Assembly (NCBI RefSeq): GCF_003609835.1
Contig: NZ_AP017898.1
Coordinates: forward strand, 1,488,001 to 1,552,000
DNA length: 64,000 nucleotides
Origin: Sphingopyxis sp. FD7
GTDB lineage: Bacteria > Pseudomonadota > Alphaproteobacteria > Sphingomonadales > Sphingomonadaceae
Direction of reading: 5' to 3'
Below the pieces are notes generated by a model. The model did no database searches, was not told the origin of the DNA, and saw only the letters and a list, made by a program, of their open reading frames with translations. How positions within the stretch are numbered: the first letter of the stretch is position 1; each line of letters starts with the position of its first letter. A program made the translations under genes and the position numbers. This document shows positions 33,077 through 39,056 of this stretch, piece by piece.

Positions 33077-33152
33077 GGGCCCTTAGCTCAGTCGGTAGAG
33101 CAACTGACTTTTAATCAGTAGGTCGCTGGTTCGAACCCAGCAGGGCTCACCA
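33077..33152 (+). tRNA. tRNA-Lys (anticodon TTT)
   Basis: A full 76-base cloverleaf: acceptor GGGCCCT/AGGGCTC with discriminator A and encoded CCA; D arm with AGCTCAGTCGGTAGAGC; anticodon arm CTGAC-TTTTAAT-CAG with TTT at positions 34-36; T arm GCTGG-TTCGAAC-CCAGC. All stems pair, allowing one G-T pair in the acceptor. Confidence 0.97.
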
Positions 33153-33213: not shown

Positions 33214-34236
33214 ATGGAGGGTAATCATTTGTCGACGCTGATTACGGGCGCTGCCGGATTCATCGGGATGCAGGTCGCGGCGGCCTTGCTTCGCCGCGGC
33301 GAAGCGGTTGTCGGCATCGACAATTTCACGCCCTATTATTCGGTCGAGCTCAAACGCGCGCGCGTGGCGCGGCTCGATGCCGATTCTGGCGGCCTGTTCA
33401 CCTTCCTCGACGTCGACTTTGGCGATGCTGCGGCGCTCGATAATGCGCTGGCGGGCCAAAGGATCGACCGGATCGTCCATCTCGGCGCCCAGCCCGGCGT
33501 CCGCTATTCGCTCGAAAATCCCGCCGCCTATGTCCACTCGAACGTCGCCGGGCATGTCAACATCCTCGAACTCGCGCGGCATCGCGCGATTTTGCATCTC
33601 GTCTATGCCTCCTCCTCCTCGGTCTATGGCATGCGCGCCGACACGCCCTTCCGGGTCGCCGACCGCGCCGACACGCCGATCTCGCTCTATGCGGCGACCA
33701 AGCGCGCCGACGAATTGCTGAGCGAAACATACGCGCATCTGTTCCGCATTCCCCAGACCGGCCTGCGCTTTTTCACCGTCTATGGCCCGTGGGGACGCCC
33801 CGACATGGCGATGTGGAAGTTTACCGAGGCGGTGCTGCAAGGTCGGCCGATCGACGTCTATAATCATGGCGATATGCGCCGCGACTTCACCTTTATCGAC
33901 GATATTGTGAACGGCGTGGTTCTGGCGCTCGACCACCCGCCCGCCGACGACGGGCGCGAGAAGCCGGGCGGTTTCACGACTCCGCACCGGATCTACAACA
34001 TCGGCAACAACCAGCCGGAAAAGCTGACCGATATGATTGCCGCCATCGAGCAGGCGTGCGGTCGCAAGGCCGAAATCAACCTGCTGCCGATGCAGGATGG
34101 CGACGTCTATCAGACCGCAGCCGATATCGGCGATATCCAACGCGATCTTGGCTTTGCACCGACAACGCCGATTTCGGTCGGGATTTCCGCCTTTGTCGAA
34201 TGGTATCGGAAAGACTGGCTGCCACGAAGCGCCTGA
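33214..34236 (+). CDS. NAD-dependent epimerase, probable UDP-glucuronate 4-epimerase
   Basis: 340 residues from ATG at 33214. A TTG at 33229 preceded by GGAGGG would give the tighter start MSTLITGAAGFIG that relatives show. Extended-SDR features: TLITGAAGFIGMQVAAALL (cofactor loop), GIDNFTPYYSVELKRARV, YASSSSVYG and the catalytic YAATK. FTVYGPWGRPDMAMWKFTEA and MRRDFTFIDDIVNGVV are typical of UDP-glucuronate 4-epimerases (GAE/LpsL) making UDP-galacturonate for surface polysaccharides. It is convergent with nrsF, with only 3 bp between the stops. Confidence 0.9.
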   Translation: MEGNHLSTLITGAAGFIGMQVAAALLRRGEAVVGIDNFTPYYSVELKRARVARLDADSGGLFTFLDVDFGDAAALDNALAGQRIDRIVHLGAQPGVRYSLENPAAYVHSNVAGHVNILELARHRAILHLVYASSSSVYGMRADTPFRVADRADTPISLYAATKRADELLSETYAHLFRIPQTGLRFFTVYGPWGRPDMAMWKFTEAVLQGRPIDVYNHGDMRRDFTFIDDIVNGVVLALDHPPADDGREKPGGFTTPHRIYNIGNNQPEKLTDMIAAIEQACGRKAEINLLPMQDGDVYQTAADIGDIQRDLGFAPTTPISVGISAFVEWYRKDWLPRSA

Positions 34237-34239
34237 ATA

Positions 34240-34887
34240 TCACCACCGCAGGAAACGCGGCAGAATCAGCCGCCCGGCGAGCGCCGAGATGACCACCGCC
34301 AATCCATGCCACAATGCGATGTGGATCAGATTGTCGTCGGCGCAATGCAGCGCGACGATCGTGGCACCCGCGGCGCCCGAGGCGAGGCCGATCACCCAGC
34401 CCGCCCGCGCCGGTGAGGTCGGCGCGCCAGACCTGAGCCACAGGAACAGCGCCGCGCCGACGCCCAGCCCCGACGCAATGCCGAGCGACAGGCAATGCGC
34501 GTCGAGCCCGCCGTGCGCCGCGTCGATCGCCGCATGAGTGTCGCCGAACGCCAGCAGCAATGCCGCGAGCGGCAAGGACAGCGCCGCGAGCACCGCCCAG
34601 CGCCAGCCGCTATAGTCGCGCCCGACGCCGGGCAGACCCATGCGCAACGCGCTCCACGCCGCGGCGACGCCCGTGGCCGCGATCAGCCAGAAGCTGAGCA
34701 TCGACAGCGCGGGCATCCCGCCCGCGGCAAGGTCGTGACGCATCCCGTAAAGCCACAGGAGCAGCACTGCACCGCCAACCCAGCCCGCAGCCGTCCACGC
34801 CAGACCCCGAACCATCTTTTTGGGTGGCACGGGTTTTAGTTCGTCGGCCAGTCCGTCGATCAGTTCGTCGATCGATGCGTCGTTCAT
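34240..34887 (-). CDS. nrsF: NrsF-type anti-sigma factor (DUF1109)
   Basis: 215 residues from ATG at 34887. A short cytoplasmic N-terminus (residues 1-28) is followed by six hydrophobic segments. This is the DUF1109 pattern found with SigF-type ECF factors. Two cysteines (Cys132 in AHCLSLG and Cys182 in LHCADDN) stand in the later membrane part, the arrangement thought to sense heavy metals in Caulobacter NrsF. It lies directly after sigF, end to end, and is the last gene of the bufferin operon. Role: hold SigF at the membrane until metal stress (family knowledge). Confidence 0.88.
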   Translation of the reverse strand: MNDASIDELIDGLADELKPVPPKKMVRGLAWTAAGWVGGAVLLLWLYGMRHDLAAGGMPALSMLSFWLIAATGVAAAWSALRMGLPGVGRDYSGWRWAVLAALSLPLAALLLAFGDTHAAIDAAHGGLDAHCLSLGIASGLGVGAALFLWLRSGAPTSPARAGWVIGLASGAAGATIVALHCADDNLIHIALWHGLAVVISALAGRLILPRFLRW

Positions 34888-34888
34888 T

Positions 34889-35410
34889 TCATTCACTTTC
34901 AATAAGTTGTGCGAGTTTTTTGAGGCCGCGATGAATGTTCACCTTCACCAGCGACTCGCTCTGGCCGCAGATTTGCGATGCTTCGGCAATCGAGGCGCCC
35001 TCGATCTTGACCAGCGTGATCGCCTGCGCCTGGCCAGGCGGCAGCAATGTCATCAGCCGGTCGATACTGAGCCGCGCATGGACCGCTTCGTCCTCCGCGC
35101 CTACCGCGGCGTCATTGTCGCCAAGTTCCGCCTCGTCCCGTTGACGGCGCAGCATGTCGATCCAGCGGTAACGCGCGATCGCCGCGAGCCAGGGCAGGAA
35201 AGCGCGGCCGCTGTCCCATGTCGCGAGCTTGCGGTGCATCGACACAAGCGTTTCCTGTATCAGATCGTCGATCTGATGCGGCGCGATACGGCGCGCGAAA
35301 TAGCGCGCGAGCCAGAGGCGGCAATCACCGAGCAGCGCGCGATAGGCCGCGCGGTCCCCCCGCTGCGATGCGGCCATCAACCGCGCGAGCGAAGGTTCGT
35401 CGAGGCTCAT
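34889..35410 (-). CDS. sigF: ECF sigma factor, SigF type
   Basis: 173 residues. Region 2: YRALLGDCRLWLARYFARRI, DDLIQETLVSMHRKLATWD and PWLAAIARYRWIDMLRR. Region 4: LPPGQAQAITLVKIEGASIAEASQICGQSESLVKVNIHRGLKKL, the helix-turn-helix for -35 recognition. Pairing with a DUF1109 anti-sigma and with bufferin genes identifies it as the SigF group known from Caulobacter metal stress. It overlaps the DoxX gene by 4 bp. A promoter of exactly the SigF type stands in front of bufA, suggesting positive autoregulation of the whole operon. Confidence 0.9.
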   Translation of the reverse strand: MSLDEPSLARLMAASQRGDRAAYRALLGDCRLWLARYFARRIAPHQIDDLIQETLVSMHRKLATWDSGRAFLPWLAAIARYRWIDMLRRQRDEAELGDNDAAVGAEDEAVHARLSIDRLMTLLPPGQAQAITLVKIEGASIAEASQICGQSESLVKVNIHRGLKKLAQLIESE

Positions 35411-35865
35411 CTCCGGCGCAGCCTAGCAAAGAGCGCGTCGAGCGAGAACAGCCCGCCGCCGCGCACGATCAGCATCGCCGCCATCGCCGCCCAGAGCGAA
35501 TGCACCGGCCACCAGGCGTCGGGAAAGACGAAGATCTGGATGACGAGCGTCATCACGAGCAGCGCCGCCGCCGAAAAGCGCGTCGCGAGGCCGAAAAGCA
35601 GCAACGCTGGGAACAGATGCTCGGCCCAGACCGTCAGCGGCACCGCGAGCGCGGGATCGAGCGGCAGGCCGGAAAACTCGTTCGCGAACAGATCATATTG
35701 TATGGGGTCGATAGCTGGAAAGCCGCCCTCGGCGACCTTGGTCTGGCCCGAGCGCCAGAAGACTCCCGCGAGCGCGACGCGCAGCAGCAACAGCGCTGCA
35801 CCCTCGGCGATCCGCGACGATGCCATCCCGACGGCGCGATCGTAAAAACCAAACAAGCGTTTCAT
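35407..35865 (-). CDS. bufD: DoxX-family membrane protein of the bufferin operon
   Basis: 152 residues with four hydrophobic segments. LLLLRVALAGVFWRSGQTKV is the DoxX N-terminal motif, VPLTVWAEHLFPALLLFGLATRFSA the central one, and LVMTLVIQIFVFPDAWWPVHSLWAA closes it. DoxX proteins commonly accompany bufferin peptides; they may help membrane passage or reduce the modified peptide, but the exact role is not established. It overlaps both neighbours by 4 bp, so it is a tightly coupled member of the operon. Confidence 0.88.
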   Translation of the reverse strand: MKRLFGFYDRAVGMASSRIAEGAALLLLRVALAGVFWRSGQTKVAEGGFPAIDPIQYDLFANEFSGLPLDPALAVPLTVWAEHLFPALLLFGLATRFSAAALLVMTLVIQIFVFPDAWWPVHSLWAAMAAMLIVRGGGLFSLDALFARLRRR

Positions 35866-36566
35866 CTTTCCACCTTTGCAAAAGCCCCGGCCTCGATCAG
35901 CGCCGCGATCGCCGCCCCGCCGCCGGGATGGTTTTCGCCCAGCAGCGCGATAAGGTTACCGAGCGGCGATATGTCCGCCGCGGCATCGAGCACCGCGGCA
36001 TCCGCCGGATGCGCGGCGAACAGCCGCACCTCGGCATCGGGGCGGGTGATGAGGATGGCTGCCGTGCCGGGCGCGAAGGCGGGATCGAGGCGCGGCGCCG
36101 CATCGGCCGCGAGGGGCACGATGCGCGCGGCGGGGTGACGGCGAACCGGCGTCGCGATCAGCGCAGCTTCGTCGCACCTGGCCAGGTCGCCGAGCCGGAG
36201 CGCGGGGGCATCGGCGGCATGATAGCTTTCGAGCCACGCCCATTCGACGCGCGCGATGTCAGCGGCGAGCGGATCATCCAGCCAGTCGGCCAATCCCGCG
36301 CCGATGTCGGCGAGCGCGCGCCGCTCGGCTCCGCCCGAGTCGATGAAGGCGCGCGAGAGGCGGTTGAACACGCCTTCCCCCAAATGCTCGCGGAGGCGCG
36401 GAAACGTGTCTTCGAGCGCCACGAGGCGCGCGTGCGAAATGGTGTTGGCGTGGACGCGCAGCCCGCGCAGCACCGCCGCCTCGGTCCCGGCGAACAGGCC
36501 GGTCGGCAGGTGCCGAGGACCGTGGAGCAACGTCGCCGCCACCGCCGCCTGATCGCCGTCACGCAT
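35862..36566 (-). CDS. bufC: DUF2063 partner protein of the MNIO enzyme (BufC-like)
   Basis: 234 residues. The N-terminal DUF2063 domain is visible: LRGLRVHANTISHARLVALEDTFPRLREHLGEGVFNRLSRAFIDSG, the usual YRxN-like helical region. The C-terminal half (about 110-234) is the winged/ferredoxin-like partner domain. By analogy with MbnC in methanobactin synthesis it binds the DUF692 enzyme and presents the precursor peptide. It overlaps bufB by 8 bp. Confidence 0.87.
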   Translation of the reverse strand: MRDGDQAAVAATLLHGPRHLPTGLFAGTEAAVLRGLRVHANTISHARLVALEDTFPRLREHLGEGVFNRLSRAFIDSGGAERRALADIGAGLADWLDDPLAADIARVEWAWLESYHAADAPALRLGDLARCDEAALIATPVRRHPAARIVPLAADAAPRLDPAFAPGTAAILITRPDAEVRLFAAHPADAAVLDAAADISPLGNLIALLGENHPGGGAAIAALIEAGAFAKVER

Positions 36567-37419
36567 CGACCGGCTCCAGCAAGGCGTCGGCCTTGCCCGC
36601 CTCGGCCATCAGCACGGCGAAATCGGGCACGCCGCTGTCCCATTCGACAAGGACGGGCCGCGGCCCCGCGCGGCGGATAAAGCGGGCGAGCAGCGCCCAG
36701 CAGCTGTCGCGCACCGACGAACCATGATCGTCGATCGCGATCCGGCCGCCGTCACCGTCATCCTTGACCGCGTGACCCGCGACATGGATTTCACCGACAA
36801 GCGCGGGATCGATCGCGTCGAGCCACGGCGCGGGATCGAGGCCGAGATTGAAGGCCGAGACCTCGACATTGTTGATGTCGAGCAGCAGGCCGCAGCCGCT
36901 GCGGCGACAAAGTTCGTGGAGGAACGACAGCTCGTCCCAGTCATCGCGCGCATAGGCAAGATAACGCGAGGGATTTTCGATCAGAATGCGACGGCCGAGC
37001 CGGTCCTGCACATGATCGACCTCGCGCGCGAAATGATCGAGCGCCGCGTCAGTGTAAGGAATCGGAAGCAGGTCGGGAAATCTGTCGCGCGGGGTGCTGC
37101 TCCAGCTCAGATGGTCGGACACCATCGCGGGCTGGTAACGGTCGCAAAGGCGCGCGAGCGCGTCGAGTTCGTCGCGGTCGACACCCGCCGCCGACCCGAG
37201 CGACAGGCCGACCGAATGGAAGCTGATCGGCATGACGTCCGCAATCGCCGTGAGCCAGCGATGCGGCGGCCCGCCCGCGCCGAAGTAATTTTGGGGGTGA
37301 ACTTCGGCCCAGGCGGGCGCCGCGCCCCGCTCCGCGGCCGCCAGCACGTCGGCATAGTGCCGGGCCTTCAGCCCGATACCGGCGCGCGGCGGCAGTGTGT
37401 GGAGCGGGACGGAAGCCAT
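36559..37419 (-). CDS. bufB: MNIO-family (DUF692) iron oxidase, bufferin-modifying (BufB-like)
   Basis: 286 residues of TIM-barrel type. PRAGIGLKARHYADVL opens the chain; the metal-binding His, Asp, Glu and Asn residues are seen in ISFHSVGLSLGS, MVSDHLSWSS, ILIENPSRYL, LLLDINNVEVSAFNLG, EIHVAGHAV, DDHGSSV and VEWDSGVP. These enzymes use a multinuclear iron centre and oxygen to convert Cys residues of a partner peptide (in bufferins to thiooxazole groups that bind copper). The partner is the BufA peptide encoded 4 bp upstream. All motifs are present, so the enzyme should be active. Confidence 0.93.
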   Translation of the reverse strand: MASVPLHTLPPRAGIGLKARHYADVLAAAERGAAPAWAEVHPQNYFGAGGPPHRWLTAIADVMPISFHSVGLSLGSAAGVDRDELDALARLCDRYQPAMVSDHLSWSSTPRDRFPDLLPIPYTDAALDHFAREVDHVQDRLGRRILIENPSRYLAYARDDWDELSFLHELCRRSGCGLLLDINNVEVSAFNLGLDPAPWLDAIDPALVGEIHVAGHAVKDDGDGGRIAIDDHGSSVRDSCWALLARFIRRAGPRPVLVEWDSGVPDFAVLMAEAGKADALLEPVDA

Positions 37420-37423
37420 GGGG

Positions 37424-37729
37424 TCAGCCCTTCTTCGGCACCGGCTTGGCGTTGCCCTTGTGCGCGGTCAACGTGCCGCCCATCTTTTCGCAGCTGCCCT
37501 TGGCGACATATTTCCAGGCGTTACCCTGATAATCGACGGTCGAGGTGCCGGCGCAGCTTGTGCCCGGACCGGCGGCGCAGTCATTCTTGCCCTTGAGCGC
37601 GACGCCGTAGCATCTTTCCTTGGCGTCCTTCGCGCCTTCGGCGGCGATCGCGGTGCCCGTGAGCGCCTGGCCCGCGGCAAGCGCAAGCACCGCCGACGCG
37701 GCAAGCGACAGTTTCAACGAATTGGTCAT
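37424..37729 (-). CDS. bufA: Bufferin precursor peptide (DUF2282)
   Basis: 101 residues from ATG at 37729, preceded by GGGAG. Signal peptide residues 1-30 ([20 protein letters not shown], then TAIAA), so the product goes to the periplasm. The mature part has four cysteines: Cys40 in [11 protein letters not shown], Cys51 in KNDCAAGPG, Cys59 in GTSCAGTS and Cys80 in KGSCEKMGG. This is the DUF2282 pattern of BufA1-type peptides, in which two Cys are modified by the DUF692 enzyme to chelate copper. The C-terminus is Lys-rich. First gene of the operon; a SigF-type promoter lies 52-77 bp above the start codon. Confidence 0.93.
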
Positions 37730-37780
37730 GGGAGTCTCCCTTCCTAAATGGTTTGATGCGGAGGATGGCATCGTCCGGGG

Positions 37781-37806
37781 TTCGCGGCCCGCGGGAAAAA
37801 GGTTAC
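37781..37806 (-). promoter_or_regulatory. SigF-type promoter of the bufferin operon
   Basis: On the minus strand GTAACC (37806-37801) is followed after exactly 16 bases by CGAA (37784-37781). This equals the GTAACC-N16-CGAA pattern recalled for SigF-controlled promoters in Caulobacter crescentus. It lies about 50 bp above the bufA start, which leaves a normal 5' leader. Confidence 0.8.
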
Positions 37807-37877
37807 GCAGTGCGCGGGCAGGAATTGGCAGAGCGCCGCCAATCGCATAGGAACCGGATCAACCTCATCTGAAACGG

Positions 37878-37952
37878 CATTCCGGCGAAGGCCGGAATCT
37901 CACCCTGGACTTCTGACGCAGCGGCGAGATTCCGGCTGTCGCCGGAATGACG
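37878..37952. repeat. REP-type palindrome upstream of galE
   Basis: CATTCCGGCGAAGGCCGGAAT with following CTCA, then, after about 23 bases, GAGATTCCGGCTGTCGCCGG and AATGACG. Each half is a hairpin and the two halves pair with each other. It lies in the 310 bp gap between divergent bufA and galE (37730-38039). Apart from this repeat and the bufferin promoter I see nothing else there. Confidence 0.7.
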
Positions 37953-38039
37953 AGAATAAAGGTGGTATTCAGTCCAGCCCGGTCGCGCGCCGCCAGCACA
38001 GAGCGGGTCGCGAATGGGACGGCAGACCAAAGGGCGGCG

Positions 38040-39056
38040 ATGAACATCCTTCTGACCGGCGGCGCCGGATATATCGGCAGCCATGTGGCGGCGACGTTGG
38101 CGGCGGCGGGGCACCGCGTGACCTGTTTCGACAATCTGTCGAACAGCGACGCAGCGGTGATCGACCGGCTGGAAGCGATCACCGGCGCGGTGATCCCGCT
38201 GGTGGTCGGCGACATCCGCGACGGCGACGCGCTGCGCCGTGCGATGCGCGGCCACGCGATCGAGGCGGTGATCCATTTCGCCGGATTGAAAGCCGTCGGT
38301 GAGTCGGTGGCCGAGCCGATCCGCTATTATGACAATAATGTCCGCGGCACGCTGTCGCTGATCGAGGCGATGATCGACTGCGGCGCCAGGCGGCTGGTTT
38401 TTTCGTCGAGCGCCACCGTTTACGGCCAGCCGCAATATCTGCCGCTGGACGAGGATCATCCGACGTCGGCGACCAACCCCTATGGCCGCACCAAGCTGAT
38501 GATCGAAGAGATGCTGGGCGACATCGCCGCCGCCGATCCCGACTGGCGGATCGCGATCCTGCGCTATTTCAACCCCGTCGGCGCGCACGACAGCGGACTG
38601 ATCGGCGAGAACCCCAATGGCGTCCCCAATAATCTGATGCCCTTCATCAGCCGCGTCGCGGCGGGCCGGCTCAGCGAATTGTCGGTGTTCGGCGACGATT
38701 ATGACACGCACGACGGCACGGGGGTGCGCGACTATATCCATGTCGTCGATCTGGCGGCCGGGCACGCGGCGGCGCTGGACGCCATTGTCGGGGCCGACCG
38801 GTCACTGTCGATCTGGAACCTCGGCACCGGCCAGGGCTATTCGGTGCTCGACATGATCAAGGCGTTCGAGCGCGTGAACGGCGTCGCCATCCCCTATCGC
38901 ATCGCGCCGCGCCGCGCGGGCGACGTTGCCAGCTGCTTCGCCAGCCCCGACCGCGCCGCGCGCGAGCTGGGCTGGACCGCGGAGCGCGACCTTGACGCCA
39001 TGTGCGCGTCGAGCTGGCGCTTCGAGCGGATGCTGGCGACGCGCAACGCGGATTGA
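38040..39056 (+). CDS. galE: UDP-glucose 4-epimerase
   Basis: 338 residues from ATG at 38040. MNILLTGGAGYIGSHVAATLA (Rossmann motif), TCFDNLSNSD, VIHFAGLKAVGESV, FSSSATVYGQPQ, NPYGRTKLMIEEML (catalytic Tyr-x-x-x-Lys), LRYFNPVGAHDSGLIGE and DGTGVRDYIHVVDLA are the classic GalE series. It interconverts UDP-glucose and UDP-galactose, supplying surface glycan synthesis. It is convergent with the UPF0016 transporter gene; a perfect palindrome separates them. Confidence 0.95.
   Translation: MNILLTGGAGYIGSHVAATLAAAGHRVTCFDNLSNSDAAVIDRLEAITGAVIPLVVGDIRDGDALRRAMRGHAIEAVIHFAGLKAVGESVAEPIRYYDNNVRGTLSLIEAMIDCGARRLVFSSSATVYGQPQYLPLDEDHPTSATNPYGRTKLMIEEMLGDIAAADPDWRIAILRYFNPVGAHDSGLIGENPNGVPNNLMPFISRVAAGRLSELSVFGDDYDTHDGTGVRDYIHVVDLAAGHAAALDAIVGADRSLSIWNLGTGQGYSVLDMIKAFERVNGVAIPYRIAPRRAGDVASCFASPDRAARELGWTAERDLDAMCASSWRFERMLATRNAD

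Follow-up and report, generated by a model that had tools for sequence, protein, structure and literature searches.

A putative SigF-type promoter embedded in bufC of a sphingomonad bufferin operon

We analysed a stretch of 64,000 nucleotides from Sphingopyxis sp. FD7 (contig NZ_AP017898.1, positions 1,488,001 to 1,552,000 of the forward strand), hereafter the window, whose numbering is used for all coordinates unless a contig is named. Its minus strand carries a six-gene operon, bufA-bufB-bufC-doxX-sigF-nrsF, which is a further member of the known Buf1 bufferin class with its own pair of sigma and anti-sigma factors, SigF and NrsF. The operon class is already known, and its control has so far been read as one upstream promoter; the new part is a second SigF-type promoter motif that lies within the coding region of bufC. 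Our sequence comparisons favour, with a probability of roughly 0.8, a model in which two SigF promoters serve the operon, P1 driving all six genes and the embedded P2 driving doxX-sigF-nrsF.

Two SigF-type motifs in one operon

P2 is an exact match to GTAACC-N16-CGAA, where N16 is a spacer of 16 bases, at 35959-35934 on the minus strand. It lies in the sense orientation of bufC, 68 bp before the ATG of doxX. We compared the window with 41 related loci (L042-L082), 39 of which have all six genes in the same order; the other two are L052, which ends in bufC, and L080 (Novispirillum), which has neither sigF nor nrsF in its stretch. The genes of the 39 six-gene relatives contain 38 exact copies, all of them in bufC and in the sense direction; each of the remaining 11 combinations of gene and strand has 0. 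The bufC gene of L052 also carries a copy. The distance from P2 to the doxX ATG is 67-115 bp in 39 sequences.

A search for NrsF across the order, which found it in 124 of 296 genomes, widened the sample. From its match list, 60 regions were hand-picked to cover genera other than the window's own, and their genes were located with profiles built from relatives. Twelve of the 60 regions are collinear six-gene operons, representing ten genera, and their bufC genes hold an exact copy in ten cases, a copy with one mismatch in L152 and none in L165. The window, the 39 relatives and these 12 further operons provide 52 bufC genes followed by sigF, of which 49 carry exact P2; the third non-exact case is L057, whose copy has a 17-base spacer and lies in another reading frame. 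Another 19 bufC genes have no sigF in the 1500 bases that follow them. P2 was found in none of these (17 of them informative, L116 and L119 being incomplete), even when one mismatch was allowed, and GTAACC was absent from them too. Apart from two exceptions, every collinear set of six genes keeps the motif, which tracks the position of sigF. Motif positions in other gene arrangements point the same way, toward a promoter that follows sigF: in L138, a stand-alone doxX-sigF-nrsF operon, the motif lies 103 bp before doxX, and in L159 and L163, from one genus, where the order is bufA-doxX-sigF-nrsF and bufBC is divergent, an exact motif lies inside doxX, before sigF.

P1 is likewise an exact match, at 37806-37781 on the minus strand. 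A first-pass annotation of this DNA had placed such a motif about 50 bp above bufA, and the interval between the P1 CGAA and the bufA ATG is indeed 51 bp. Among the 41 related loci, the motif upstream of bufA is exact in 33, has one mismatch in 7 and is absent in 1 (L080), and it lies 33-79 bp from bufA in 40 sequences. These counts support the prediction that a conserved SigF-type promoter precedes bufA. The motif itself was defined in Caulobacter by 5' rapid amplification of cDNA ends and reporter fusions (PMC3511200). The same annotation had also held that regulator and peptide share one transcript. That account is probably incomplete and covers just half of the wiring, since a further SigF-type promoter motif, inside bufC, precedes doxX-sigF-nrsF.

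The second copy of the signal would probably let SigF be switched on separately. In the mechanism we propose, NrsF would sense periplasmic copper or a similar stress through two cysteines, as shown with chromate for Caulobacter, and the stressed NrsF would release SigF. RNA polymerase carrying SigF could then start at P1 and produce the full message for BufA, BufB, BufC, DoxX, SigF and NrsF, and BufB and BufC would convert cysteines of BufA to copper-binding groups. The same polymerase would also start at P2 within bufC to yield doxX-sigF-nrsF alone, so that the supply of switch and brake would not hinge on the long message from P1. Self-amplification via SigF is plausible under this scheme. 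We infer that P2 is an active promoter that depends on SigF and serves this purpose, and that the operon responds to metal in its host. If the model is correct, it would illustrate how a sigma factor that regulates itself can maintain its own supply after relocation to the tail of the operon it controls.

A rival reading keeps the single promoter of the first-pass annotation: only P1 works, and the copy in bufC arose by chance or through constraint on the protein. The tight overlaps and 1-4 bp gaps between the genes favour a single message, and L165, which is collinear and has all six genes without P2, implies that P2 can be dispensed with. Nor is the motif enriched across the genome: the pattern with spacers of 15-17 bases gave 18 matches, and a reversed control pattern gave 17. 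We rejected the genome-wide count as evidence for this reason, and it is placement and conservation, not the bare count, that carry the argument. Against this reading stand the exact 16-base spacing of P2 in nearly all bufC genes with sigF downstream, its absence from the bufC controls and the lack of any other internal copy in the 39 relatives. The one-promoter reading is improbable in our judgement. The window itself has two exact copies; 100 shuffles averaged 0.04 copies, and not one of them had two. The genome holds 10 exact copies with a 16-base spacer, namely four before genes (bufA, the glutathione reductase gene gor, egtB and a cytochrome b operon), P2 and five in open reading frames. 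Searches of 33900-38100 for other control points gave no support for one, with 1 sigma-70 promoter-like site (0.4 expected) and 2 terminator-like sites (3.1 expected).

Codons and residues at the embedded motif

The conserved letters could instead reflect constraint on a Gly-Asn-Leu motif in the BufC protein, with no promoter involved. The asparagine is indeed present in 51 of the 53 aligned BufC proteins from six-gene operons, L057 and L165 being without it, and the reading frame is identical wherever a copy with the 16-base spacer occurs. Against this, the -35 box of P2, where kept, is always xGT-AAC in the codon alignment, although its first codon varies. This codon is GGT in most sequences, AGT in L049 and L156, TGT in L128 and L142, and CGT in L152; it can thus encode Gly, Ser, Cys or Arg, yet its GT stays the same. 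BufC proteins of the family without a downstream sigF never have Asn at this site and mostly have Glu or Asp, and L057 has GTAACC in another frame. All four wobble bases within the motif rank among the best 11 of 222 codon columns for conservation (ties included; shared ancestry uncorrected). A purely protein-level explanation is very unlikely on these grounds.

Given each protein, codon choice alone is expected to spell the motif in about 3% of sequences (range 0.8-11%); it is spelled in 50 of 53 aligned bufC genes and in 10 of 13 representatives at 60% identity. In the sequences that depart from it, the mismatch of L152 arises in the codon after AAC, which is TTT, and the six-gene locus L165 reads GGC GAA at the P2 site. 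The embedded motif seems to have shaped the BufC protein sequence. If true, this would offer a clear example of a protein sequence held in check by regulatory DNA, in which the bufC promoter can be followed over at least ten further genera and moves with the sigma gene.

Several points nonetheless weigh against the two-promoter model, in addition to L165 and the lack of genome-wide enrichment. The sequences compared share ancestry, so the counts given above are not independent, and the 3% expectation ignores this. Published work on related systems adds other contrary or neutral points. Caulobacter work with chromate or cadmium described sigF as 'not strongly auto-regulated' and found sigF and bufB mutants not to be sensitive to either agent (PMC3511200). 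RpoE7 of Sinorhizobium meliloti, which belongs to this sigma factor group, showed no induction by H2O2, cadmium or chromate (PMC6180224), and the dependence of the Cupriavidus gig genes on RpoQ is unproven (PMC10304878). On the other side, the Caulobacter sigF promoter is required for sigF expression and is SigF-responsive (PMC3511200); copper induces the Caulobacter SigF regulon, with sigF rising by 2.2 to 4.7 log2 units, and a sigF::Tn5 mutant is copper-sensitive (PMC8224329). The link between SigF/NrsF and metal stress in Caulobacter, which the first-pass annotation had stated, has support in the literature (PMC3511200, PMC8224329).

A candidate wider SigF regulon

Three further exact SigF-type sites, identified by motif match and conserved in the genus, lie before genes elsewhere on contig C1 of the host genome. 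They precede egtB (C1:2686950-2686975), gor (C1:1197793-1197818) and an operon in which a cytochrome b561 gene is followed by a gene for an Oxidored_molyb protein (C1:2455817-2455842). Both EgtB and the glutathione reductase score above their NCBIfam cut-offs. An exact site is present at 26 of the 30 best genus relatives for egtB, at 27 of 30 for gor and at 21 of 30 for cytochrome b, with one mismatch in another 5 of the last.

The sites also co-occur with NrsF, which scores above its cut-off in 46 of 60 genus genomes. When further regions are added to the sample, genomes with NrsF have exact sites at 38 of 44 egtB, 29 of 31 gor and 21 of 27 cytochrome b loci, two of the cytochrome b misses being at contig ends, compared with 2 of 9, 2 of 11 and 1 of 8, respectively, in genomes without a detected NrsF. 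The corresponding Fisher p values are 0.0003, 6e-6 and 0.002, uncorrected for relatedness and calculated on genomes that are not a random draw.

These data bear on another reading, in which P2 and the three distant sites serve a different extracytoplasmic function (ECF) sigma factor, for example EcfG of the general stress response. Two observations count against attributing the distant sites purely to SigF: in Sphingopyxis granuli TFA, egtB and egtD are reported to be members of the EcfG regulon (PMC7083833), and one genome that is 87% complete and has no NrsF found (G719) retains all three sites. The few NrsF-less genomes that keep sites lend this reading some further support, as does the egtB site of one of them (G714), which reads GGAACC. 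However, the EcfG consensus printed for S. granuli, GGAAC-N16-CGTT (PMC7083833), occurs in none of the 30 egtB upstream stretches when spacers of 16-17 bases are allowed, and the P2 motif follows the position of sigF, not stress genes. We consider it quite unlikely that another sigma factor accounts for P2 and all of these sites, although the egtB site may belong to EcfG instead.

Taken together with P2, the distant sites suggest a broader model that we regard as moderately likely. In this broader model, a SigF promoter embedded in bufC would give the sigma and anti-sigma genes of collinear sphingomonad operons an autoregulated start and would have forced an Asn where relatives mostly have Glu or Asp. 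SigF would also drive egtB, glutathione reductase and the cytochrome b/molybdopterin operon, joining copper buffering to defence by low-molecular-weight thiols. Such a link to ergothioneine and glutathione reductase, if true, would mean that metal buffering is not the only task of the SigF regulon. A molybdopterin oxidoreductase operon belongs to the predicted SigF regulon in Caulobacter as well as here.

Gene families, known systems and neighbourhood

The six genes lie on the minus strand, with coordinates that include stop codons: bufA at 37729-37424, bufB at 37419-36559, bufC at 36566-35862, doxX at 35865-35407, sigF at 35410-34889 and nrsF at 34887-34240. bufA and bufB are 4 bp apart and sigF and nrsF 1 bp, and at the three junctions in between the genes overlap by 8, 4 and 4 bp; these coordinates, together with the Pfam assignments, confirm the earlier description of six genes on one strand with overlaps of 4-8 bp or gaps of 1-4 bp. 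BufA is a DUF2282 bufferin 1 precursor (Pfam DUF2282, 87 bits against a cut-off of 22) that falls below the cut-off of the NCBIfam BufA2 model (32 against 60 bits). BufB, the MNIO bufferin maturase, matches Pfam MbnB_TglH_ChrH and NCBIfam MNIO_BufB (334 bits against 310); it is related to the 3bww and MbnB structures, and its closest named relatives are from Sphingopyxis, with up to 93% identity. BufC, the DUF2063 partner protein, in whose 3' coding part P2 lies, and DoxX, a membrane protein encoded by the first gene after P2, pass the Pfam cut-offs for DUF2063 and DoxX, although they do not reach the NCBIfam equivalogs HvfC and HvfX. SigF is an ECF sigma factor with Pfam Sigma70_r2 and r4_2 above cut-off, named as such by its position before nrsF, which starts 1 bp after it, so that the anti-sigma gene stands directly behind the sigma gene. 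NrsF scores 137 bits with Pfam NrsF (DUF1109; cut-off 26.8) and 60 bits with the NCBIfam equivalog AntiSigF_NrsF (cut-off 300), which places it in the same family but in another equivalog. The host genome (3.94 Mb, two contigs) has a single DUF2282, a single MNIO and a single NrsF gene, all in this operon.

The features of Buf1 membership found here are a four-Cys DUF2282 precursor, an adjoining MNIO gene of the BufB type, a DUF2063 partner and a DoxX gene. Thiooxazole groups on the two central cysteines, and copper binding, are further marks of the class that would be expected of the mature peptide. The cysteines of BufA are at 40, 51, 59 and 80; the first-pass annotation gave these positions correctly but assigned them to the mature peptide, whereas the numbers refer to the precursor, whose N-terminus looks by eye like a signal peptide. 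The spacing 10-7-20 is kept in 41 of 42 BufA proteins (the window and L042-L082). Like the present operon, published Buf1 clusters have four conserved cysteines, of which the central ones are modified and the outer two form a disulphide, and they include sigma factor and NrsF genes, which are listed for Buf1 and not for Buf2; the accessible part of that paper contains no promoter analysis that we found (PMC12452194).

A close parallel is Caulobacter crescentus, in which SigF controls CC3254-CC3257 (DUF2282, DUF692, DUF2063, DoxX) and CC2907-CC2905 (PMC3511200). Together with sigF-nrsF (CC3253-CC3252), the former cluster has the same six families and the motif GTAACC-N16-CGAA (PMC3511200, PMC8224329). 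In that species sigF-nrsF is transcribed separately from an intergenic promoter of its own, whereas here the pair forms the tail of the operon, overlaps doxX and likely has its own promoter in bufC. Cysteines 131 and 181 of Caulobacter NrsF matter for its function (PMC3511200); they correspond to 132 and 182 here, matched by position and number rather than by direct alignment, and both Cys columns are kept in 37 of 37 aligned sequences.

Other systems share parts of this arrangement. In S. meliloti, rpoE7-ecfR7 (group ECF16) likewise adjoins DUF692/DUF2063 genes (SMb20530-SMb20527), the promoters start with GTAAC and contain CGAA, and RpoE7 autoregulation has been suggested, but the genes are divergent and do not form a collinear operon (PMC6180224). 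The gigPABT genes of Cupriavidus metallidurans are induced by copper and gold and were proven to be an operon by reverse transcription PCR; the adjoining sigma and anti-sigma genes rpoQ-rsqA are divergent and reported to be RpoD-dependent, in contrast to the collinear pair here (PMC10304878). A literature search covering titles and the starts of abstracts, with few subscription papers and without supplements, returned no description that we recognised of an internal SigF promoter in bufC.

Gene order varies among the loci sampled. In the group L083-L119, bufA-doxX and sigF-nrsF diverge, a second bufA and a bufB often come next, and the motif precedes several of these units. Tandem bufA genes head the six-gene operon in L131, L136, L156 and L165. 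Downstream of the operon in the window, a convergent NAD-epimerase gene (33214-34236, plus strand) ends 3 bp from the nrsF stop, which leaves no room for a terminator between them. An Rfam scan of the window yielded only a transfer RNA gene (33077-33149, plus strand). Between bufA and galE, a stretch at 37870-37950 (ATTCCGGCGAAGGCCGGAAT ... ATTCCGGCTGTCGCCGGAAT) resembles an inverted repeat and by eye looks like a repetitive extragenic palindromic element.

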